Of a stretch of DNA of 64,000 nucleotides, positions 1,101-57,994 are shown piece after piece. The position numbers and the translations under genes are program-made. The notes beneath the pieces were generated by a model. That model was not told where the DNA came from, did not search any database, and saw only the letters and a list, made by a program, of their open reading frames with translations. Where the stretch lies: contig NC_088924.1 of assembly GCF_038396675.1 (NCBI RefSeq), positions 29,861,501-29,925,500 of the forward strand. Reading direction: 5' to 3'. The stretch is from Hydra vulgaris (lineage: Eukaryota > Cnidaria > Hydrozoa > Anthoathecata > Hydridae). Within the stretch, counting starts at the first letter, position 1. The number at the start of each line of letters is the position of its first letter.

Positions 1101-3868
1101 CTAAATGTACAACAATTTTTCAACTTGTTCAGGCTGCAATTTTGTTCTTTTATTAGAGACGATTCCACCACCGGCACTAAAGGCTCTTTCTGAAGATGCT
1201 GAGGAAGCAGGTACACATAGCCATTTTTTAGCAACTTTTTAGCAAGGAGAGGAAATTTGTACATATTTGCTCTCTAAAATTCCAGCACGCCCATACCAAC
1301 AACCCCTGTGAGTTTTTGAAATATTTCCCATTCAGTGACTATGTCCGACTTTGCAGGTAGAGACGGACCAGAATAGGAAGTCATAAGTGCAGGACCTTCT
1401 TCTATTCCAACATTATAGAAAGGATCATCTTCTGAAACATGACCTTGGATTTCAGCATGTAACCGTTCATTAAATAATCTTGTTGCAGCAATCCATTCCT
1501 GATAAACATTGGATTGAGTAATTAGTGCCTCATAGGCTTCATCAAATCTACCCAGTTTTTTCAGAGCTCCTCCCTTGTACAAGGGGTTAAGCAAGTTGGC
1601 AAAAGAGTAAAAAAGGTTTTGACAGCCAGTGTCCGGAAAACGAACATCTAAGTTTTCCACCAATTTTTGGTGAAACATGTGTGCTGTTGGTGATGCCCAC
1701 CAGCCCTGATGAAATCCAGGCATTTGTGTCTCAGTGTGTAAATGTTTGAGATAACGAGGTGAATGCTTACAGAGAAACAGTCTGAAATTTTAGCAACTCT
1801 CCTCAGAATAAACAAAATTTTATCATAAAGATTGAACTCATCTTCTGAAGGAATTACTGGAGCTAGTTTGGTGTCATCTTTTCCAGGAATGTCTCTAATG
1901 GAGCTGAGGATATGACGCATTTTTACAATGCTTTCTAACATCATAAAAGTTGAATTCCAGCGTGTTTTCACGGGAGTGATGATTTTCACAAGTTTTAACT
2001 TATCCTTGCCAACAATATCACTGCCATCAAGCAACAGCTTTATCTAAAAATTAAAATAGAATTATAAGAAACATAACATAAAAGGTGATTAGTACTATTT
2101 ACTATCATTAAAAACTGATATTAACTATGTTATATGTTTTTACTTTTTAAGTGTTAACATTTTATCAGTTATTAATAATAGCTATCATTAGAAAAATTTT
2201 GTCACACAAAGTGTACTGAGAAGATTGCGCTTGTATTGTATTAAACTATAAACTAAATTGCTATAAAAGCTAAAAAGAATGTTAAACTAAAAACAAGTTA
2301 CCTCTTTTTTAATATTTTGCTCAGACAAACATGACTTGTGGCATCTTGAACTTAATTCATTTGCTTTTTGGATTGCTTCGTGAAGATCCAAACTGTCGAA
2401 ACCTTTTGTTTCTTTGACAGTTGCTTCAACTGCCAAATTCAAAAAATGATCAGCACATAAAAGAGATGCATCTATAAAATGCACTTGTTAATTGCCGCCT
2501 TCATATTAGCGGCTGAATCATGGACACACAACGGATGAAACTCCATTATTTCCGGCCAACTCTGAGACATTCCTGAAAAGCAAAGTAAAATTAGTTGTTT
2601 GCTTTTTGATATTTTAAAATACAAACTAATATTTTTGTTATTATTGTAGATATAAATAAAAGTATTAATTTGTGCCATTAATTTTAAACTAAATAGCGGG
2701 TTTTGCTTTTTTGTTACAAAAAGTTATCTAAATAATTCAAACGGTTAACTTAATTTACAGAAATTTTTACCTAATAAAAATAAAGTACTAAAACATACTT
2801 ATCCAGACAAAAAGCAATGGCTTCAGCTGTATGTTGTCCGGAAAACGGAAAAACTTCAATCACAAACATCTTTACCGGAAGTCTTTCGCAGTTCCTCCTT
2901 TAGAATGTCATCCACACAGATTTTCACATTTTTGTACAACAACGGCAACCTAAAATTAAAATAAAAAATTAGTTATTACTAGTATTTCTCGATACATATC
3001 AATTTGGTTAACTACTAAGAAAAGCAAAAAAAAATTGGTGTGGATTGGTCTTAAAAAAGTAGCTTTTTAAAAAAGTTAGTTTTCTTGGAACTCTCATTGA
3101 ATTGACTCCCCACCCCAAAATAAAATTTATTTAAAACAATTAAAATTTTGCATAGTTGAACCGAGAGTATGTTGTTGCAGCCTTCACATTCATTTCTGGG
3201 TTCCAGTAGTGAACAAAATCTTTAAAAGCTTCATATTCAACCAAAGAGAATGGCAAATTTAAACGGGCCAAAAACTTGACAATTTCAATGTCTCCTCTAA
3301 GCTGTTCACGGTCTTGTATCTTGTACTTGACCCAATACCTTAGATTTTGGACTTTTTCTGCTGATGGTCCGGAAAGTCTTCCTTGTTTAACCTTACTGCC
3401 CAACACTAATGGCGTCTTATAATCTTGGACCTGCTCATAAGACTAGTCTTCATTGTAGGTCTAAAAATTAATATGAAACCTGGTAAAATACCTAATATTG
3501 AAACATTCATCAGCATTTATTGAAAGTTATTGGTATTTATCGTTAAATCTTGGTATTGTAATATTAATAATAACTAACACATATGAAAATAAAAGTTAGT
3601 ATTTAAATTAAAAAAGTAAAAACGTTTCTAAACTTTATTGCACCTGTTCTAACTAATCAAAAGGAACATGGCGCTTTTTCTCCAGGGCTGCAAACTGAAC
3701 AGGATGTTTCCTTGTCAAATGTGATCTTATGCCAGATGTTTTTCTGTCCGTCAACTTGCAAATTTTAAAACAATACTTGCATTTTGCAGTAACAAGTCGC
3801 TCTTCATCAGGTGCAGTACTGACCTCTTCATCAAAGTGATTCCAAATTTCGGTTCTTGGTCTTGGCAT
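1101..3868 (-). pseudogene. hAT-superfamily transposase with BED zinc finger, decayed, multi-exon
   Basis: Cut-and-paste transposase of the hAT superfamily, read right to left. A BED-type finger opens it (3868-3653: W-NHF, CKYC, then SHLTRKH). A segment at 3406-3140 matches the usual hAT linker (LPFSLVEYEAFKDFVHYWNP). RNase-H-fold pieces follow: GQHTAEAIAFCLDK near 2800, CVHDSAANMKAAI near 2510, CADHFLNLAVEATVK near 2430 and TRWNSTFMMLESIV near 1960. The C-terminal dimerisation segment (ASSASSERAFSAGGG) lies at about 1220-1160 and ends at a stop near 1101. Intron-like gaps carry plausible minus-strand GT/AG borders, for example 2301/2045, 2798/2574 and 3646/3462. Damage includes in-frame TAG codons after the BED exon and near 3442, frameshifts near 2480 and 1215, and an internal deletion near 2860 that removes part of the catalytic core. 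It is not functional. I could not place its terminal repeats with confidence. Confidence 0.85.
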
Positions 3869-6786: not shown

Positions 6787-7439
6787 ATTGTTTTATTTTA
6801 TGAAATTTTAAAATTTTATTATAAAAATGATATTTTTCCCTGGATGTGGGTAAGATGGAAGGGTCATAAAGCTTATATAAGTTACTTCTATAGTAAAGCT
6901 AAAATCAAACTAATCTAAATGATGTATGGTGAATGTTCTTGTTTTGTCATTTTTCTTCTAGAGGGAGATTGTCCGGGCGATAATGTTCTCCTTGTCCTTA
7001 AATCACGCCTATGCTTTTATACAGGAGGGATTGTTAAAGATAAGCCTATCGGTTAGTCAGCCTGCAGTTCTGAATTATTAAACGATAGCTTTAACGCATG
7101 GGTCATATTTCCGTGTTAGAATGCCTAACACGGAAAGGGTTTTTACATTCTAAGGCTTTCCGTTTAAGATCCACTCATTTTTTAAACGTTACAAGATTGG
7201 CTATTATATATACTAAAAAAAGTAATTGGTACAATTATTATGCACCACTGCTATCGGAAAAATTAAACTCGATCAATTTTAGTTCATAAAGCAAATTATA
7301 TTGGTTTTCTATATGATTCTTTATTAATTTTCTCAAACCATCATTGATTCAGAATTAAAATAAAAGTAGATCGTGAAATATCCTTCAAACCCCCTTGCGC
7401 AAATAAATATCCTCCTTTCTTTACATGCAACTTTTTTTA
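6787..7439. other. 3' part of hAT element 2, no gene seen
   Basis: No supportable coding region. The one structured site is a short hairpin at about 7109-7137 (TTCCGTGTTAG, 5-nt loop, CTAACACGGAAA). Confidence 0.5.
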
Positions 7440-7635
7440 AATTAGTTATTAAGGTGTTATGAGCAGTCCTAATGGTCTTGTCACAAAGAGAATTTGTGCC
7501 ACAAAGAGAATTGTGTCGCCGCCACGAGGAGAATATCATTTAGTAAGTTAGCTTTCCATTATCTCCGATAACGTTTATGGGCTTCGAGCGGGGATCGAAC
7601 TCTCAACCCATGGATTACGAGTCCAATGTTCTAAC
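7440..7635 (-). mobile_element. tRNA-headed SINE, 3' part (continues at 13770)
   Basis: Read on the minus strand, the tRNA-like head runs TTAGAACATTGGACTCGTAA (anticodon-loop-like CT-CGT-AA, Thr type) then GAGTTCGATCC, a good B box, at about 7635-7568. The body follows to about 7440 and contains GTGACAAGACCATTAGGACT, a tail word also seen at 16480-16510 next to poly(A) and, in variant form, at the 3' ends of the LINEs in this window. The acceptor stem does not pair as in a true tRNA, so this is a SINE head rather than a tRNA gene. Its 5' end was cut off by the P-type element and resumes at 13770. Confidence 0.65.
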
Positions 7636-7640
7636 CACTG

Positions 7641-7669
7641 CACAGTGGGCCAGTAGGTGGACAAAATGG
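7641..7669 (+). repeat. Left RSS-like end: heptamer CACAGTG, 13-bp spacer, ACAAAATGG
   Basis: Heptamer at 7641-7647 is the canonical recombination-signal heptamer. The block GGACAAAAT shared with the other end starts at 7659, so ACAAAATGG begins at 7661 after a 13-bp spacer. Six of nine positions match the RSS nonamer consensus ACAAAAACC. Confidence 0.7.
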
Positions 7670-8100
7670 GAAAAATTTTAGTTGTCTAATCTTGAAAACC
7701 TATTTAATTTTAGTATCTACATATATTAGGAGAAATCTATTGATAATTTATTTATATTAAATCCCTTAGTTACCAGGACTCTAAGCATTTGAATATTGAG
7801 ATAAAATAAAAAAAATAAAAATTATAAATAAGTAATTAACGGTGACATCAACGTTGTGTTATATTTCAATTACATCTACGTTTTTGAAACAAAAAATTAG
7901 TACATGTTATTCTAGAGTATTTAGAGATAAGAAAAACCATTTCTTAAGAAACTTATTTTTTGTCGCACAATAACTAATAATTACCACAATTTGCCATGTG
8001 TTGTCTTATATTTATTTGAGCTATATGATGCTTCAATCGAGTTTTAATTGATTGCTCGTCCCCTTAAATCCCCGTTCAGATTTTATGTATGTTTTAACTT

Positions 8101-8286
8101 GGTTGCTATGGTACTAAATTTTGCATAGCAACAACTCATTTTTACATTAACGTTGTTTTAACAGTATTTTACTTGCGCTAAATACACAATATTGGGGGTA
8201 TGTATTAAAATGAGATTCAGAATTCTTATGAGGTTAACTTTTTTTGGTTACTATGGATACCTTATTTTGCATAACATATCAACAAC
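8101..8286. repeat. Left subterminal repeats of the Transib-like element (two units)
   Basis: Unit 1 (8101-8136) reads GGTTGCTATGG...CATAGCAACAAC and is itself a 9-bp palindrome (GTTGCTATG / CATAGCAAC). Unit 2 (8246-8286) reads GGTTACTATGGATACC, then TTTGCATAAC and CAACAAC. Inverted relatives lie near the right end (10621-10651 and 10759-10795). Candidate transposase-binding sites. Confidence 0.7.
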
Positions 8287-8468
8287 ATATTTTCGGTAGT
8301 TGTTAGTAATTTAATTACTAACACTGACAGTAATTTAATTACTTTTAATTTTAATTACTAACACTTGTAGTAACTTAATTACTAACAAGTATTAGTAGTC
8401 CAGGCGGCATATATATTATAACATTTTACTTTTAAATACAAAATACTAGTTACAATAATTATTTAGAT

Positions 8469-10397
8469 ATGGTTTTGTTAAACTTAGACATTCATAATTT
8501 TCTCCAAAAAAACAATCTTAGTATTTCAAAACAAAATATTACTGAAGATATATTAAAATTTATTCAGCCAAAATTTGCTGATTTTAAAGACGTTGATTTT
8601 AGACATGCTGTTCAACGATTTGTTTACTTGTATAAAAAAAAGTAGAAATCTGCAAACTATACTGTGAAAAATTTTGAAAAGAAGTTTGTGAACTGGCTTA
8701 ATGAATATTTAATTGTCAGAAAAAAAGACAATGAACCAACTGCAAGTAGACGTGGTCGAAAACCAGTTGCATTTGATGATAGTTCTAATAAAACTAAAAA
8801 ACGGCGTGTATCTTGTTTAATTGAATCTCATTCATCCAATGAATTATTTTTTGCTGCTAATAAAAAATTTAGAGATGAATCTGTTGTTATTGCTGCCAAG
8901 AGTGTTTTAAATATATCAAATACAGATAAAGCAACTAAATATTCAGCAGACGAAGCACTGGCTTTAATAATTGATGCAAGTCTGACAAAAGCTTCCTATC
9001 AATTGATTAGAAGCGGAGCCTTGGAGAAAGAATATAACATCTACCCCGCTTACAATGATGTCAGAGATGCAAAATTGAAATGTTATCCTGCAAACATAAC
9101 AGTGGAGGACTATTCAGCTTCAGTTCCTTTAAAAGATTTAATGACTCATACTTTGCAAAGAATCTGTGCAGTTCAGGAACCTGTGCTAAGGCACTTGATA
9201 TTGAACGACAAAGCAATAAAAACAATGACACTAACGTGTAAGGCTGGTTTTGATGGTGCTACTGGCCAAAGCATTTATAAACAAGTTTTATCAGAACCCG
9301 ACATTAACAGAGATTTAAAGCGTGAAGAATCATTATTTATTACTTGTCTTGTCCCATTGGATTTGACTGGATTTAACAACAGCAACGAAAAGGTGCCTAT
9401 TTGGAGAAATCAAAAGTCGTCCTCCACAGCCTATTGTAGACCCATAAGATTTGCATACAAAATGGAATCCAAGGAATCTGTGATTGAAGAAGATCAGTAC
9501 ATTAAAAGTGAGATAGAAAGCTTGGGTATGATTTTATTAGAGGTTTGCGGATCTTCTATTGAAGTGAATTGTATTATTGAACTTACAATGATTGATGGGA
9601 AGGTTCAAACAATATTATCTGAAAAAAATAACTCATACCAATGCTGTTCAGTGTGTGGTGTCTCTCCAAAAAATATGAATAGTCTTGATATCCTTAATAT
9701 AGATTATACTAACAGAGAGTTCAAATATGGTCTTTCCAGTCTTCATGCATGGATTCGATTTTTTGAGATGTTATTGCACATTACATATAAAAAAGAAACA
9801 AGAAAGTGGCAAGCAAGATCTAAAGAACACAAAGAAAAGGCATCTGTAGCTAAACAAAAGATTCAGACTGATTTTATGAACAAAATGGGACTTGTTGTTG
9901 ATTTACCTAAAAGTGGTGGTTCTGGAACAAGTAATGATGGCAATACCTCAAGGCGTGCTTTTGCAGCATACGAACAAACAGCTGAAATTCTGGGTATTGA
10001 CCAAAACCTTATATTCAGATTTTACATTATCTTGGTAACGCTCTCTTCAGGATATAAAATAGACTGCTTAAAGTTCAAGGATTATTGTTTTGACACTTTT
10101 AGACTATATGTGTCCCTTTATCCATGGTATTACGTGGCTCAATCAGTTCACAAAGTATTGATACATGGACATGACATAATTAAAAGCCTTACATTACCCA
10201 TCGGACTTATGTCAGAGGAAGCTCAAGAGGCTAGAAATAAAGACTTTAAATCTTACCGCGAAAATTTCAGCCGAAAAACATCCAGAAAAGCAACAAATAC
10301 TGATCTTATCAATAGACTCCTAGTTTCCAGTGATCCTGTTATTTCATCATTGCGTAAATCAACATCACACCAAACAAATCATAAAGCATTTCCTTGA
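8469..10397 (+). CDS. Transib/RAG1-core-like transposase, one in-frame TAG at codon 59
   Basis: DDE transposase predicted to cut at the CACAGTG ends of its own element. The natural start is ATG 8469; 58 codons run to a TAG at 8643-8645, after which the same frame stays open for 577 codons from 8664 to the TGA at 10395. Total about 642 residues, the usual Transib size. Numbering from 8664: D197 in GFDGATG, D311 in LTMIDGK, a zinc-type CxxC at 328-331 (CSVC), HxxxxH at 496-501 (HKVLIH) and E522 in EARNKDFKSYR. The order D, D, CxxC, HxxxxH, E and the spacing of the last blocks match the RAG1 core (HKTLAH, then ESGNK). A basic N-terminal patch (RRGRKP, KKRR; 29-48) may bind DNA. Codon 8664 is GTG, so a separate 577-aa product has no good start. 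Apart from the amber codon I see no lesion. The family name rests on motifs and the element's ends, not on a search. Confidence 0.82.
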
Positions 10398-10620
10398 GAT
10401 GTTTTACAATTACTTAAACAATCTTCAAACGATATTATTGTTTTATAATTTTTTGATGTAATTTAAAATTGATAACGTTTTCTTGCACTATTTTTTGCTT
10501 TTATTATTCCTAAAACATTATTTACCTAAATACTCAATTTTTATTCAATATAGGTGGGTCAAAAATCCGATAAGATATTCAAATATCAATTTACCACTTT
10601 GTAACTAAGGAAAGCATCCG

Positions 10621-10795
10621 GTAACTAAGCAATATAAGTATCCATAACAACTAAATTTAAAAAATTATCACTTTTGTAAGAAGTGTGATCTCATATTGGT
10701 ACTCATGCCAAATTTAGTGAATATAGCACTTATAAAATATCTGCAGATAACAAAAGTAGGTTGTTGCTAAGCAAAATAAAGGTATCCATAGCAAC
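10621..10795. repeat. Right subterminal repeats of the Transib-like element (two units)
   Basis: Two units, 10621-10651 and 10759-10795, on the minus strand read GTTGTTATGGATAC and GTTGCTATGGATACC, each followed by TTGCTTAG. They mirror the left units at 8101 and 8246. The stretch 10400-10928 otherwise shows no gene. Confidence 0.7.
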
Positions 10796-10890
10796 GAAAT
10801 AAAAAAATATTACCTTCATAAAAAGCGCAGACATCATATTAGTACTCATACTAATTTTAGTGAATATAGCTCTAATATTAAATTAGTTAT

Positions 10891-10928
10891 GAATTTTGTC
10901 CAGTAAAAGTGCATTCTGGCCCACTGTG
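10891..10928 (-). repeat. Right RSS-like end: heptamer CACAGTG, 22-bp spacer, ACAAAATTC
   Basis: Read on the minus strand from 10928: CACAGTG, then 22 bp (10921-10900), then ACAAAATTC (10899-10891). The first 13 bp and the GGACAAAAT block are identical to the left end, but the spacing differs by 9 bp. The 13/22 asymmetry resembles the 12/23 rule of antigen-receptor recombination signals. Confidence 0.7.
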
Positions 10929-10993
10929 CACTGATCTCAAAATATAACTGGATAGCGTATACGGCAAATTTTTTGAAGCCAGTTTTGATGATG

Positions 10994-11130
10994 GATGGCG
11001 ACGGTTTCGGTTGATTACAAATGAAGAAATTTTTGTTACGAACTTATATGATGACTTATTTTGATAACAAGATGGCGACGGTTTCGGTTGATTACAAATG
11101 AAGAAATTTTTGTTACGAACTTATATGTCA
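10994..11130. repeat. Two copies of a ~57-bp direct repeat, 77-bp period
   Basis: GATGGCGACGGTTTCGG begins at 10994 and again at 11071, each followed by the same text to ACTTATATG. It lies just inside the left end of the P-type element. A related word, GATGGCGGCGAT (minus strand), sits just inside the right end near 13690, so it may be a subterminal binding site that was duplicated. Confidence 0.75.
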
Positions 11131-11599
11131 TTTACATATATAAATATTATGAAATGTACATGTCTCAAATATAATTTTTGGTTTTACATAACAATAATTA
11201 AAAAAAAAAAAGGCAATATTACATATTTACGTAAATTTCTCTATTGTTTAACAAAATATATTCTAAATAATAAGTTTGTATAATTATTATTATTAAAAAA
11301 GTAAGATATTATAATAATATCTTGCTTTTTTAAAGATAAATAAATGTTATTAAATAAGATAAAAATTCTTAGTTTTTTTTTAACTAAGAATTGGTTTATT
11401 TAACATTAGTAAAAATCAAATAAGGAACTAGTAGTTATACAAGTTAACAATTTCCAAACAACTTTCGAATAATTATTTTAAGTTTGAAAAACTGAAATAA
11501 TTTTATTCATATTTTGTTTATTTTTCATTTAACTACTTTCTTTTAATTTTAGTTTTACTATAAATTATTTGTTTAATATTGTTTATAATACAATTTATG

Positions 11600-13500: not shown

Positions 13501-13769
13501 TGCCATTTAATAATAAATTCAATTATACAAAAAAATAATTTCTTTTTTTCTCTAATATTTATAAAATTCATTTGTTTTCTTTTATTTTTAACAAATTTAT
13601 AAGCTTATTTAATTTTTTTTTTTTTGTAATTTGATAAAGCCATTTAAAATGTATATCGGTTTCACCGATAGGAACTAAAATCGCCGCCATCTTAGGAGGC
13701 CAATTTTTGCTTCATCTTTTTCGGAAAAAACAATAGAACCAGCTATCCAGTTATATTTTGAGATCAGTG

Positions 13770-13800
13770 GTTCTAACCACTGCAACACGGCTGCTATAAA
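13770..13800 (-). mobile_element. SINE head, 5' part (separated from 7440-7635 by the P element)
   Basis: GTTCTAAC at 13770-13777 is the right copy of the P-element target duplication. Minus-strand text GCAGCCGTGTTGCAGTGG supplies the A-box side of the tRNA-like head whose remainder lies at 7635 and below. Confidence 0.6.
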
Positions 13801-25109: not shown

Positions 25110-27202
25110 AACTGCAGGGTATCATTATTATTAAAAGAACGCGGGAAACTTGCAGAAGACCAGATGGTCTTGTCATCAAGAAACCGCTTGTACTAGTAAT
25201 ATTTTTTGTATTTTTGTTTTTACATGTTTCTAGTTTCACAAAGTATAATGGTAGTTCATTTTATATTGGATTCACATACAATAAAATGTAAGATAAAAAA
25301 TAATTGATAAATGCTAGATTTTGCACACATAAATATATGATTAGGCATAAATAAAATTATTTTTGATTTATATATTTTTTATATTAATATTTGTTATTGA
25401 AGTTTTTTGGGATTTTCGCTTCAACGTTAATTTTGGCTCTAGTTTCAGTATTAGTTTAGTGTAAGTTCATATAATTGTTTATATTTAAAACGAATTTTTT
25501 TAGTAAGATTTTCAAACAATTTTGGTTATCTAATTTTGTAATTATGGCATTTCTGGATATCAGTTTATTATAGAGATAGGGACCGCGATATGAAATTGTG
25601 AAACGCGATAGTTTTGTTTTTCTAAACGGTATATTAAAGTTTCCTACTTCTCGAGTGTCATATCTATTTCTATTGCTTTTAAAGAAATCATTTGAGAAAT
25701 GTGATGGGACAAGCCCGAGTTTATATTTCAGCATAAACAATAAGTTTTGATAAATGTTTATTCTATAGACGTTTAGTGCATTAAGGAGTTTTAACAAAGG
25801 TTCAGCATGAGTGAATTTGTCTTTTTTATAGACAATTCTAACGGCATGTTTTTGACGTCGATAAAGTGATTTCAAATTGGATTTATTGGTACTTGCCCAT
25901 GCTATATTACCATATGTATAATAGGTCTGTATAAATGAGAAATAAAGACGTTTTAGATTTTCTTGGGATAACATTGGTCTAGCTTTGTATAGCACGCCAA
26001 TGTTTTTGGTTATTTTTGTATTTAAATAGTCAATGTGTGCTTTCCATGAAATATTTTCGTCAATTAGTAAACCTAGAAATTTTGTTATTGAGGTTCTTTC
26101 AATATTTTTGTTTTCTATTTTTAGCAATGGTAATATATTAGGTATTTTTTTTCTTTTTTGGTTGGGATGGAATAAAATGTAATTGGTTTTTTCTGTGTTT
26201 AAAGATAATTTATTAGATTTTAGCCAGATATTAAGTTTTTCAAGTTCGATATTCGTTGTTTCAAAGAGTTCTTCAATAGACTGAGATGAATAAAATAAAT
26301 TAGTATCATCTGCAAACATTATTACATCAAGTTTGTTTAAGACTTTTGGAAGATCGTTAATGTATATTAAGAACAATAAGGGAGCTAGAATGGAACCTTG
26401 GGGAACGCCACATTTAATCTTAAGCAATTTTGAACAGATATTTTCATCAGTATTAACACATTGCTGTCTGTTTAGCAAAAAATTTTTAAACCAGAGTAAT
26501 GCAACATTTTTTACGCCATATTTTTCCAATTTTTTTAACAGGATAGCATGATCAACAGTATCGAATGCTTTCGATAAATCTATAAAGATTCCTAAAACAA
26601 ATTCTTTATTAACAAATGAGTAGTTGATGCTATTTACAAGATCTACGATTGCATGTTCGGTTGCATGTTGCTTTTGAAAGCCGAATTGTTTTGTATTTAA
26701 GATATTGTTGTTTGTTATATATTGGTATAATTTATTATAAATTATTCGTTCGAGGAGTTTTGAGAATACAGGAAGAATTGAGATTGGTCTATAATTGTTT
26801 AGTAAGTATGGTTCTCCAGTTTTATATATTGGTACAATTTTAGCAATTTTCAATTTCTCTGGAACGGTTCCTGTTGTAATTGAAGATTTAAATATTTCGA
26901 AGAGGGGTTTCTTTATTATCGGAAAGATACTCATTACAATATTGCTACAAATTTCATCAATTCCTGGTGCTTTGTTGATTTTTAAAGAGTTTTTTGCATT
27001 TTCGAGTTCTTCATAGCTTAATCCGTTGAAAGTTAGTTCGCTATTTAGATCAGTAAAATAATTTTCAAAGGAGTTATTTGCGGTTTGAATTTTAGACGCC
27101 ATGTTAGGGCCAATATTTGCAAAGAAATTGTTGAATTGTTCGGCAATAGAGTTCTGATCGTTGTGTTCTATTTCATTTATATCATTTCATATATATATCT
27201 AT
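25110..27202 (-). mobile_element. 5'-truncated CR1-like LINE
   Basis: Open RT frame at 27102-25456 and a 3' UTR ending near 25120, where the minus strand carries CTTGATGACAAGACCATCTG then GTCTTCTGCAAGTTTCCCGCG-like text and ATT repeats. The 5' end stops at a (TA)n tract at 27203. Upstream in-frame residues ([16 protein letters not shown]) show the ORF once continued further. Confidence 0.85.
25456..27102 (-). CDS. LINE reverse transcriptase, 548 aa, open but 5'-truncated
   Basis: Copies LINE RNA into DNA at the nicked target. Motifs in order: [12 protein letters not shown] (43-55), [19 protein letters not shown] (about 101-119), [28 protein letters not shown] (about 167-181), [20 protein letters not shown] (about 228-247), catalytic [11 protein letters not shown] (about 257-267), [16 protein letters not shown] (about 338-353), then a C-terminal domain with [24 protein letters not shown] is intact and there is no internal stop. 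The apparent first Met is simply the first one inside the frame; coding text continues upstream ([16 protein letters not shown]) until the (TA)n tract, and the endonuclease domain is missing. It is therefore a 5'-truncated, immobile copy that looks fairly young. CR1/Rex/L2-like by motif style. Confidence 0.88.
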
Positions 27203-55557: not shown

Positions 55558-57994
55558 TGTTGTCGGTCACTTTAATGCTCACCACTCTGAATGGCTTGGC
55601 TCTAGTGTCAGTGACTCTGCAGGCATTAAAGCCCACAACTTTTGCCTTTCTCAATCCCTAACTCAAATAGTCAGCTTTCCAACTCGCTTTCCTGACAACC
55701 CTAATCATTTACCTTCTCTACTCGACTTATGTCTTGTTTCTGATCCTAGTCAGTGCTCAGTTTCTCCACATTCACCCTTAGGTGCTTCTGATCACAGTTT
55801 GATCTCTTTAAAACTAATATCTCATTCTTCTTCATCACCTGAATACCCCTATTATCGAACCTCTTACAACTACAGTAAAGCTGACTGGGATTCTTTCCGT
55901 GATTTTCTTTGTGATGGCCCTTGGGTAGAAATCTTTCAACTTCCTGTCGACAAATGTGCTTCTTACATAACTTCGTGGATTCAGGCTGGCATGGAATGTT
56001 TTATTCCCTCTCGACGATTTCAGGTCAAGCCTCACTCTCCTCCATGGTTTTCCTCACACTGTGCTGCTGCGATTGCCAATCGAAACCGTTACTTCCATAT
56101 TTATCAGCAAAACAATTCTCCAGAAAACAGACGTCTGTTTATTACTGCTAGAAACAACTGTAAAAAGGTTTTGTCTAACACCAAAACCCGCTATTCTCAG
56201 GTCATGAAATCTCGTATCTCATCTCAAAAATTAGGCTCTCGTGACTTCTGGAGAATCTTTAATAATATCAATAATAAGGGCAAATCTATAATTCCACCTC
56301 TCTTGTATGGTTCAGACTTTGTCACCTCACCTAAAGACAAAGCCGAACTGTTTGCTAAAAACTTTTCATCAATATCATCTCTTGATTCCACTAATTGCGT
56401 TCTACCTGATATTGCCAACAAACAGGTTGATCCATTGCTTGACATTCATATCACTCCAGCATCTGTATCTAAAGTGATCTCCTGCCTAGACTCTTCTACA
56501 GCTTGTGGCCCAGACAACATACCTGTTATTGTCTTGCAGAAGTGCTCTCCGGAGCTGTCGTCTATACTCTCAAAACTATTCAACAAGTGCTCATCAGAGT
56601 CTTGTTTTCCAGCCTGCTGGAAAGCCGCATCTATTATCCCTATCTTCAAAAATTCTGGGGAGCGATCTGATTCGTCTAACTACCGTCCCATAAGTCTTCT
56701 TCCTATCATAAGCAAGGTTTTTGAATCTTTAATTAACAAACACTTAATTTCTCATCTTGAATCTAATAACTTACTTTCTGACCATCAATATGGATTTCGA
56801 TCTTCTCGTTCTACAGCTGATTTGCTAACAGTAATAACTGACAGGTTTTATCGTGCATTAGATGAAGGTGGAGAGGTTAAGGCCATCGCTCTTGACATTT
56901 CAAAAGCGTTTGATAAAGTTTGGCATGCTGGTCTTCTCCATAAGCTTTCTTTTTATGGTGTATCCGGCAACATCTTTAAGATCATTGAATCCTTCCTTTC
57001 CAATCGTAGCATAAAAGGTGTCCTCGATGGACAACACTCTTCTTCTTATTCTGTAACTTCAGGGGTTCCTCAAGGTTCTATCCTTGGCCCTATACTCTTT
57101 TTAATTTACATTAACGATCTTACAGATATTCTCACATCTAAGGTGGCATTGTTTGCTGATGATACTACCATTTATTCTTGTCGTGATAAGAAACCAACAC
57201 CCTCTGATTGCCTGGAGGGGGCATTTGAGCTTGAAAAGGATCTCACTTCTGCTACAGCATGGGGCTCACAGTGGCTGGTGAACTTTAATTCAGATAAAAC
57301 TCAATTTTTTTCAGCCAATCGTTATCGCAATAATTTAGACCTTCCTATATTTATGAACGGTGATGTACTCGATGAGTCACCTACTCTTCATCTTCTAGGA
57401 TTAACTCTTACTTCCAATCTTTCTTGGAAACCATATATCAAATCGGTTGCAAAATTAGCATCTGCTAAGGTTGCATCTCTTTATCGAGCTCGCCACTTTC
57501 TTACTCTGGATTCTATTCTCTATCTCTATAAATCTCAAATCCGGCCTTGTATGGAATACTGTTGCCATATCTGGGGCGGATCTTCTAATGATGCCCTTTC
57601 TCTTTTAGACAAGGTGCAAAAACGCATTGTAAACATAGTTGGACCTGCTCTTGCAGCCAACCTTCAACCATTATCACATCGTCGTAATGTTGCTTCTCTT
57701 TCTCTTTTCTACAAATACTATAATGGGCACTGCTCTAAAGAGCTAGCGTCTCTTGTGCCATCTACTAAAATTCATTCTCGTGTTACTCGTCATTCAATTA
57801 AGTGTCATCCTTTTTCTGTGACTGTTCCTAAGTGCTCCAAAAACGCTTATTCGTCTAGTTTTTTTCCTCGAACATCAGTTCTTTGGAATTCGCTTCCTTC
57901 ATCTTGCTTTCCTGATTCATATAATTTGCAATCTTTTAAATCGTCCGTCAATCGTTATCTTGCTCTACAACCTTCATCTTTTCTCTTACAGTAA
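55556..57994 (+). CDS. LINE ORF2 (endonuclease end plus reverse transcriptase), Jockey-like
   Basis: The same frame is open from about 55556; the first ATG is at 55799 and gives 731 aa. Before it lie GHFNAHHSEWLGSS and LLDLCLVSDPSQCS, then LGASDHSLISL, the end of an APE-type endonuclease. The usual catalytic G-D-F-N reads GHFN. RT blocks, numbered from 55799: CGPDNIPVIVLQKCSPEL (about 235-252), SSNYRPISLLPIISKVFESL (about 300-319), YGFRSSRSTADLL, IALDISKAFDKVWHAGLLHK (about 364-383), [20 protein letters not shown] (about 419-438), catalytic ALFADDTTIYS (about 449-459), LLGLTLTSNLSWKPYI (about 531-546), YCCHIWGGSSNDALSLLDKV and a C-terminal RHSIKCHPF block. FADD is intact and there are no stops. 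It is dead for mobility because the endonuclease is truncated and altered, but it is the best-preserved LINE frame here and looks young. Confidence 0.9.
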   Translation, partial: VVVGHFNAHHSEWLGSSVSDSAGIKAHNFCLSQSLTQIVSFPTRFPDNPNHLPSLLDLCLVSDPSQCSVSPHSPLGASDHSLISLKLISHSSSSPEYPYYRTSYNYSKADWDSFRDFLCDGPWVEIFQLPVDKCASYITSWIQAGMECFIPSRRFQVKPHSPPWFSSHCAAAIANRNRYFHIYQQNNSPENRRLFITARNNCKKVLSNTKTRYSQVMKSRISSQKLGSRDFWRIFNNINNKGKSIIPPLLYGSDFVTSPKDKAELFAKNFSSISSLDSTNCVLPDIANKQVDPLLDIHITPASVSKVISCLDSSTACGPDNIPVIVLQKCSPELSSILSKLFNKCSSESCFPACWKAASIIPIFKNSGERSDSSNYRPISLLPIISKVFESLINKHLISHLESNNLLSDHQYGFRSSRSTADLLTVITDRFYRALDEGGEVKAIALDISKAFDKVWHAGLLHKLSFYGVSGNIFKIIESFLSNRSIKGVLDGQHSSSYSVTSGVPQGSILGPILFLIYINDLTDILTSKVALFADDTTIYSCRDKKPTPSDCLEGAFELEKDLTSATAWGSQWLVNFNSDKTQFFSANRYRNNLDLPIFMNGDVLDESPTLHLLGLTLTSNLSWKPYIKSVAKLASAKVASLYRARHFLTLDSILYLYKSQIRPCMEYCCHIWGGSSNDALSLLDKVQKRIVNIVGPALAANLQPLSHRRNVASLSLFYKYYNGHCSKELASLVPSTKIHSRVTRHSIKCHPFSVTVPKCSKNAYSSSFFPRTSVLWNSLPSSCFPDSYNLQSFKSSVNRYLALQPSSFLLQ

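Follow-up and report, generated by a model that had tools for sequence, protein, structure and literature searches.

Among described transposons close to the Transib element of Hydra vulgaris reported here, HzTransib of Helicoverpa zea shares its transposase family and core fold. HzTransib, like the Hydra element, has heptamer-type ends and makes a 5-bp duplication (extract of PMC1852546), whereas its ends, unlike those in Hydra, are described in parts of PMC8289069 as symmetric and with little or no nonamer similarity. Asymmetric ends are known from other Transibs. In Transib5 of Drosophila and in Transib2 and N1-N3 of Anopheles, heptamer- and nonamer-like blocks are set within one base of 12/23 (Kapitonov and Jurka 2005, as cited in passages of PMC8355894); these elements differ from ours in host and sequence, as judged from text and figure legend. 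Tao et al. (2022, PMC9435367) report asymmetric ends for every Transib of Subgroup I and for some of Subgroup II, and describe asymmetric bipartite ends together with a GRP-bearing equivalent of the nonamer-binding domain (NBD) in members of both subgroups, including HvuTransib-7 and -9 of H. vulgaris. Asymmetric bipartite Transib ends are therefore a class already published (PMC9435367 and the same passages of PMC8355894). The present element is a complete Transib transposon of 3,288 bp at positions 7641-10928 of a 64,000-nucleotide stretch of H. vulgaris DNA (NC_088924.1, positions 29,861,501 to 29,925,500; hereafter the window). Its family may be one of the Hydra families of PMC9435367 or a sister to one, a comparison that draws on the main text of that paper. 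We find that the unequal spacing of its two ends is more than a quirk of a single copy.

Both ends of the window element open with CACAGTGGGCCAG (starting at 7641 on the plus strand and at 10928 on the minus strand), which consists of CACAGTG, identical to the heptamer consensus of the recombination signal sequence (RSS), and 6 further bp. At the 5' end this 13-bp block 1 (7641-7653, +) is followed by the 4-bp spacer TAGG (7654-7657, +) and by the 10-bp block 2, TGGACAAAAT, in a nonamer-like position (7658-7667, +; bp 18-27 of the left end). At the 3' end the same block 1 (10916-10928, -) and the same block 2 (10893-10902, -; bp 27-36 of the right end) lie 13 bp apart, on either side of AATGCACTTTTAC (10903-10915, -). 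Counted in the RSS manner, from heptamer to ACAAAAT, the distances are 13 bp on the left and 22 bp on the right, and a first-pass annotation of this DNA had read them, as well as the two heptamers, correctly. The same holds for its 5-bp duplication: CACTG abuts the element on either side (7636-7640 and 10929-10933), and a relative of the insertion site at 13742-13772 (-), 31 bp that are 100% identical to the joined flanks across the insertion point, carries CACTG only once. This unoccupied site settles the borders, and a duplication of 5 bp rather than 6, without assumption. The repeat into which the element is inserted (7590-7640 with 10934-10960, and again 13742-13772) looks tRNA-derived by eye, and no tRNA or Rfam family was called there by ARAGORN or Rfam. 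Judged from the window copy alone, the match between the two copies of block 2 is unlikely by chance and is not decisive: a shared word of at least 10 bp between bp 14-60 of both ends occurred in 87 of 20,000 shuffles. Stretches drawn at random from the window and compared in pairs shared such a word in 201 of 20,000 cases, a figure that fell to 21 of 20,000 once the word had to contain at least 3 G/C.

The genome provides a larger sample. We searched 911,502,276 bases on 15 contigs (the H. vulgaris AEP haplotype is given as 912 Mb and 15 chromosomes in an extract of PMC12220107, 2025) for CACAGTGGGCCAG followed, after 0 to 30 bases, by GGACAAAAT. The pattern matched 988 times, and a reversed control pattern 0 times. 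Spacer lengths were taken from the 100 matches listed, all of them on contig C1: the spacer before TGGACAAAAT measures 13 in 55 and 4 in 42 of these, and 7, 14 and 15 once each. Convergent neighbours within 8 kb form 31 pairs among the same 100 matches, and all 31 combine a spacer of 4 with one of 13; none is equal. The 38 listed ends without a convergent neighbour comprise 24 long, 11 short and 3 odd ones. One long end, that of the short copy L015, is completed in its own locus as 4/13; we fetched the surroundings of 20 long, 5 short and 3 odd ends and left out 3 long and 6 short ones. Within the roughly 5 kb fetched around each of the 20 long ends, 11 partners were found that small sequence changes had hidden from the exact pattern, and every one of them has a spacer of 4; two regions hold a damaged partner (broken block 2 in L049, degraded block 1 in L039), and no partner was found in the other seven (L040, L043, L048, L053, L055, L056, L057). 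The 8 remaining regions yielded three 4/13 elements and one 4/15 element, and four ends had no partner in the fetched stretch (L059, L063, L064, L066). Two of these are the rare ends with spacers of 7 and 14 (L063 and L064, G000:C1:48253539 and 64897924). Altogether 47 two-ended copies could be read, 46 of them 4/13 (two families) and one 4/15 (a third family); L046 and L047 within this number share their flanks and represent one duplicated insertion, and L050 is counted despite unlike flanks (2 of 5 positions differ). Equal spacers, which the first-pass annotation had named as the case against itself, occur in 0 of the 47, and the fixed spacing that it proposed to look for in other copies is borne out by the convergent pairs.

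These copies belong to families that differ in their transposases. We take as reference P0001, a protein without interruptions that comes from an ENA contig and belongs to a 90% cluster of 82 members. The window family is homogeneous, with a median pairwise identity of 98.4% and a minimum of 89% (13 copies, 78 pairs, up to 1,200 bp). A second family consists of elements with the short end TGGACAAAAG and no recognisable transposase, resembling deletion derivatives of the longer L057, whose transposase matches P0115 best (73-84%) and is, in pieces, 38-48% identical to P0001. The second family retains 4/13: one of its short ends agrees with that of the window family at 13 of 13 positions of block 1 and 9 of 10 of block 2, but at only 1 of 4 in the spacer, which reads TGAC and is still 4 bp long, and beyond the blocks at 8 of 23, against a shuffle average of 7.2. 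The third family is represented by L065, an element of 2,996 bp that has a perfect CTGCG duplication and encodes a protein 95% identical to P0002 of H. vulgaris; the transposase of this family is 57-59% identical to P0001. Here the short spacer is GTGG, again 4 bp, and the long spacer is 15 bp; compared with the window family, block 2 agrees at 8 of 10 positions, the spacer at 2 of 4 and the DNA beyond at 12 of 33. Blocks and short-spacer length thus persist between families while spacer sequence and adjoining DNA turn over, a pattern that would follow from contacts of two protein surfaces, a set distance apart, with the blocks. With long spacers of 13, 13 and 15, the ends are offset from each other by 9 or 11 bp. 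The long end lies 3' of the transposase gene in at least one gene-bearing copy of each of the three families; the short end of L057 was not found. Families 1 and 2, whose transposases are less than half identical, also resemble each other over some 300 bp at the 3' end, with 80-85% DNA identity (about 10625-10928 in the window; seen in L045, L050, L057 and others), which an end exchange or a chimeric origin would explain.

The gene of the window element is a Transib transposase frame of 659 codons (8469-10445, +), 646 of whose 659 residues are identical to P0001 without a gap. Two stops interrupt it, at 8643 and 10395, a point absent from the first-pass annotation. The order D, D, CxxC, HxxxxH, E given there is found in the core (8931-10445, +; P0001 residues 155-659), with catalytic D at 9252 and 9594 and E at 10227, and zinc ligands C at 9645/9654 and H at 10149/10164. 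By a hand count along the alignment, D126, D225 and E436, the catalytic residues of HzTransib (quoted in a portion of PMC6941560), align with D262, D376 and E587 of P0001; in a 52-member alignment E587 is invariant and D262 and D376 are nearly so. The window transposase matches HzTransib with an E-value of 3e-103 and no Pfam family above cut-off. When the protein is set against Transib and RAG1, as had been suggested, the 52-member profile scores HzTransib at 1.7e-199 versus 2e-16 to 5e-9 for the RAG1L and RAG1 chains. A single open reading frame of at least 80 aa overlaps 7000-11500, and inside the element 828 bp precede and 483 bp follow the transposase frame; a second, RAG2-like frame of at least 80 aa is absent from the element, a search that did not extend to a spliced second gene. 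The candidate identity of a RAGL/ProtoRAG transposon was rejected, on account of this missing frame and of a transposase far closer to HzTransib than to RAG1L. A DDE transposase, a 5-bp duplication, heptamer-like terminal inverted repeats beginning with CAC and one gene are all present, as in the Transib superfamily. What had been called a RAG1-core-like transposon is indeed related to RAG1, but is better labelled a single-gene Transib. According to Tao et al. (2022, PMC9435367), Subgroup II Transibs lack a CCGHC-type tail (CTT1) and an alpha11-alpha12 insertion; P0001 has no cysteine among its last 60 residues, and its alignment with HzTransib shows no long insertion between CxxC and HxxxxH.

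Upstream of the core, at 8751-8930 (+), the frame encodes a GRK motif and a three-helix region (P0001 residues 95-154), a candidate NBD. RAG1-type NBDs have a basic motif of the GRP type followed by three helices; in a predicted model the Hydra region aligns structurally with the NBD part of the RAG1 chains, so that the N-terminus may resemble the RAG1 NBD, a candidate assignment based on the model and on the published statement in PMC9435367. The solved HzTransib protein starts where this region ends, and the HzTransib structure is without an NBD.

How might the two unlike ends be read? We consider it likely that the window element derives from a cut-and-paste Transib that has multiplied in the Hydra genome, of which it is a recent and slightly damaged copy, and that, as part of the same explanation, this Transib brings together one short and one long end by means of its NBD-like domain. 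In this scheme a transposase dimer would recognise the heptamer side through its DDE core, and an N-terminal RAG1-NBD-like domain would read the TGGACAAAA block. With two N-terminal domains that are linked and have to reach blocks at unequal distances, the synaptic complex would form on one short end and one long end. The ends would be cut via nick and hairpin, as in HzTransib, and inserted into 5-bp C-R-N-Y-G targets. The asymmetry would then work like a forerunner of the 12/23 arrangement, of which it may be a homologue, without being 12/23 itself. That the asymmetry is real and recurrent is a matter of observation; comparison of the sequences suggests that it is probably functional, and makes a pairing rule plausible.

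Several points weigh against this explanation. Copies of the window family are about 98% identical, so that fixity within it is expected from descent alone, and since each element inherits one short and one long end in any case, spacing by itself gives no pairing rule. Given the common 3' end of families 1 and 2, the long spacer is independent evidence solely in the P0002 family, which has 15 bp rather than 13 and is represented by one element. In a fourth family (L067-L069) we could find neither a clear TGGACAAAAT block nor the 5' end; the 3' end has the heptamer in 2 of 3 loci, and L068 and L069 show GCCAAAACC some 21 bp farther. Three of the 100 listed ends have other spacers (7, 14 and 15), and among the 28 regions around unpaired or odd ends 11 lack a partner and two have a damaged one. 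At the level of sequence, the NBD match is not significant (score 4.1; 59 shuffles gave a mean of 2.1 and a maximum of 7.5), and the structures on which AlphaFold was trained include RAG1.

The asymmetry may be merely inherited, from a 4/13 founder that burst recently and in which spacing has no functional meaning. The median identity of 98.4% among 13 copies is what such a burst would leave, and non-autonomous derivatives do retain parental ends; two families with transposases only 38-59% identical, however, retain both blocks and the exact 4-bp short spacer although the sequence of that spacer and the adjoining DNA have turned over, and we regard inheritance alone as unlikely. In three families, gene-bearing copies have the long end on the downstream side of the gene (no short end was found in L057), which would also suit an asymmetry that marks the 5' and 3' ends for some other use, such as promoter or repressor placement or ordered assembly, with pairing of like ends allowed. 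Non-autonomous copies in which no gene is recognisable retain the asymmetry too, though by descent, and such end-marking seems to us somewhat unlikely. As for a block 2 that merely looks like a nonamer by chance in AT-rich DNA, a 10-bp match does turn up in 0.1 to 1% of random comparisons, but 988 genome copies versus 0 for the control, together with conservation between families, led us to reject it, and the probability left to it is negligible.

One further reading is that the element follows a true 12/23 rule, the one known from V(D)J recombination, and that its nonamer and spacers are equivalent to those of the RSS. The heptamer equals the RSS consensus, the nonamer core is ACAAAA, and 13/22 and 13/24 are within one base of 12/23. 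On the other hand, compared with the nonamer consensus ACAAAAACC (as given in an extract of PMC8289069), ACAAAATGG agrees at only 6 and ACAAAATTC at only 7 of 9 positions, and the ends are offset by 9 bp in two families and by 11 bp in a single element, where 12/23 would give 11. The element also has no RAG2, which RAG1 needs in order to prefer 12/23 over 12/12 (passages of PMC8355894). Exact spacers of 12 and 23 bp are found neither in the window element (13/22) nor in the P0002-family element (13/24); literal 12/23 spacing is rejected on these counts, and the wider rule is very unlikely. Of the 12/23-like end pair put forward in the first-pass annotation, the asymmetry stands, while 12/23 as the spacer lengths is not supported.

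Perfect 5-bp duplications flank 18 of 24 copies (11 of 12 paired full copies, 7 of 12 others), a count that omits L047, whose flanks are those of L046, as well as L060, L061, L062 and L065, where perfect 5-bp duplications were seen by eye. The 18 perfect cases (e.g. among L009-L037) lie in AT-rich DNA and give the palindromic consensus C-R-N-Y-G, with C first in 15, A or G second in 18, T or C fourth in 14 and G last in 15. In a protein search for genomic Transib frames, 68 of 8,750 candidates were scored; 56 of the 68 are at the identity level of the window family (47-49% to P0004), and by our own count 37 of these 56 have no stop in the matched stretch. The window family is, on this sequence evidence, young and rich in uninterrupted frames. 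According to an excerpt of PMC12220107, CMC-Transib is one of 14 putatively active families of elements that are enriched in H. vulgaris AEP over strain 105. No other DNA copies were found in public collections, whether in genome and viral contigs by pattern and alignment or in plasmids and phages by tblastn.

Other features of the window and of related loci may be recorded here. Sub-terminal repeats occur at 8088-8268 and 10625-10877, near the 3' end as a tandem duplication spaced about 143 bp, and a GGTATCCATAGCAAC-like motif recurs in both orientations on either side of the gene, possibly as sites for a host factor or the transposase. Elsewhere in the window lie two LINE-type reverse transcriptase reading frames, at 25456-27102 (-) and 55799-57994 (+), with RVT_1 E-values of 2e-36 and 1e-36. 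The Transib at L067 of the fourth family (1597-3105, G000:C15) is 95.6% identical over 503 aa to P0007, a partial protein labelled as from a Rickettsiales metagenome-assembled genome (MAG); the sequence match suggests that the bacterial label is probably contamination, which bears on claims of bacterial Transibs. The reverse transcriptase P0222, likewise assigned to a Rickettsiales MAG, may be mislabelled as P0007 probably is.

For the origin of adaptive immunity, how the 12/23 restriction arose is an open question. Most of eukaryotic history lies between the Hydra Transibs and a RAG-like transposon of an alga, and the two have in common the plan of a 13-bp block, 4 or 13 bp, and a 10-bp block. 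It is on this ground possible, though we would sooner doubt it than assume it, that the bipartite 4/13 plan is ancestral to the whole RAG/Transib lineage as a synapsis code enforced by function, and that the NBD reading it was lost in HzTransib. If so, the 12/23 rule of vertebrates would be a lengthened version of an existing short/long rule and not an immune invention, and Hydra would offer a young family with many uninterrupted frames in which to test the ancestral code. The window family and its two sister families form a natural spacer series, with the same short spacer in all three and a different long one in one element, combined with a protein that carries a candidate NBD, and would allow a direct test of whether the pairing of unlike ends predates RAG2 and vertebrates. 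What we add to the published class of asymmetric ends is a tally on the scale of the genome, the turnover of spacer sequence from family to family, a sister element with 4/15 ends and, for the NBD-like region, its structural register; none of these was found in the literature searched, outside which the relevant figures and supplements lay. As a system the Hydra Transib is of a known kind, and its value is that of a good test case.

Among the RAG-like and RAG systems, AanRAGL of Aureococcus anophagefferens (PMC9435367) has end elements of 13 and 10 bp with spacers of 4 and 13 bp, the four numbers of Hydra, and likewise makes a 5-bp duplication, but its block sequences are others and it has a RAG2-like gene. 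ProtoRAG of amphioxus shares asymmetric bipartite ends and a RAG1-like protein with the Hydra element and differs in its spacers of 27/31, in a TR5 block that is not nonamer-like and in its RAG2-like gene (parts of PMC8355894 and PMC8289069). Vertebrate RSSs and RAG1/2 have in common with Hydra the heptamer CACAGTG, the ACAAAA core, a short and a long spacer, a related core fold and, on the Hydra side as a candidate, the NBD; they stand apart in their exact 12/23 spacing, in the RAG2 partner and in being a recombinase rather than a transposon.

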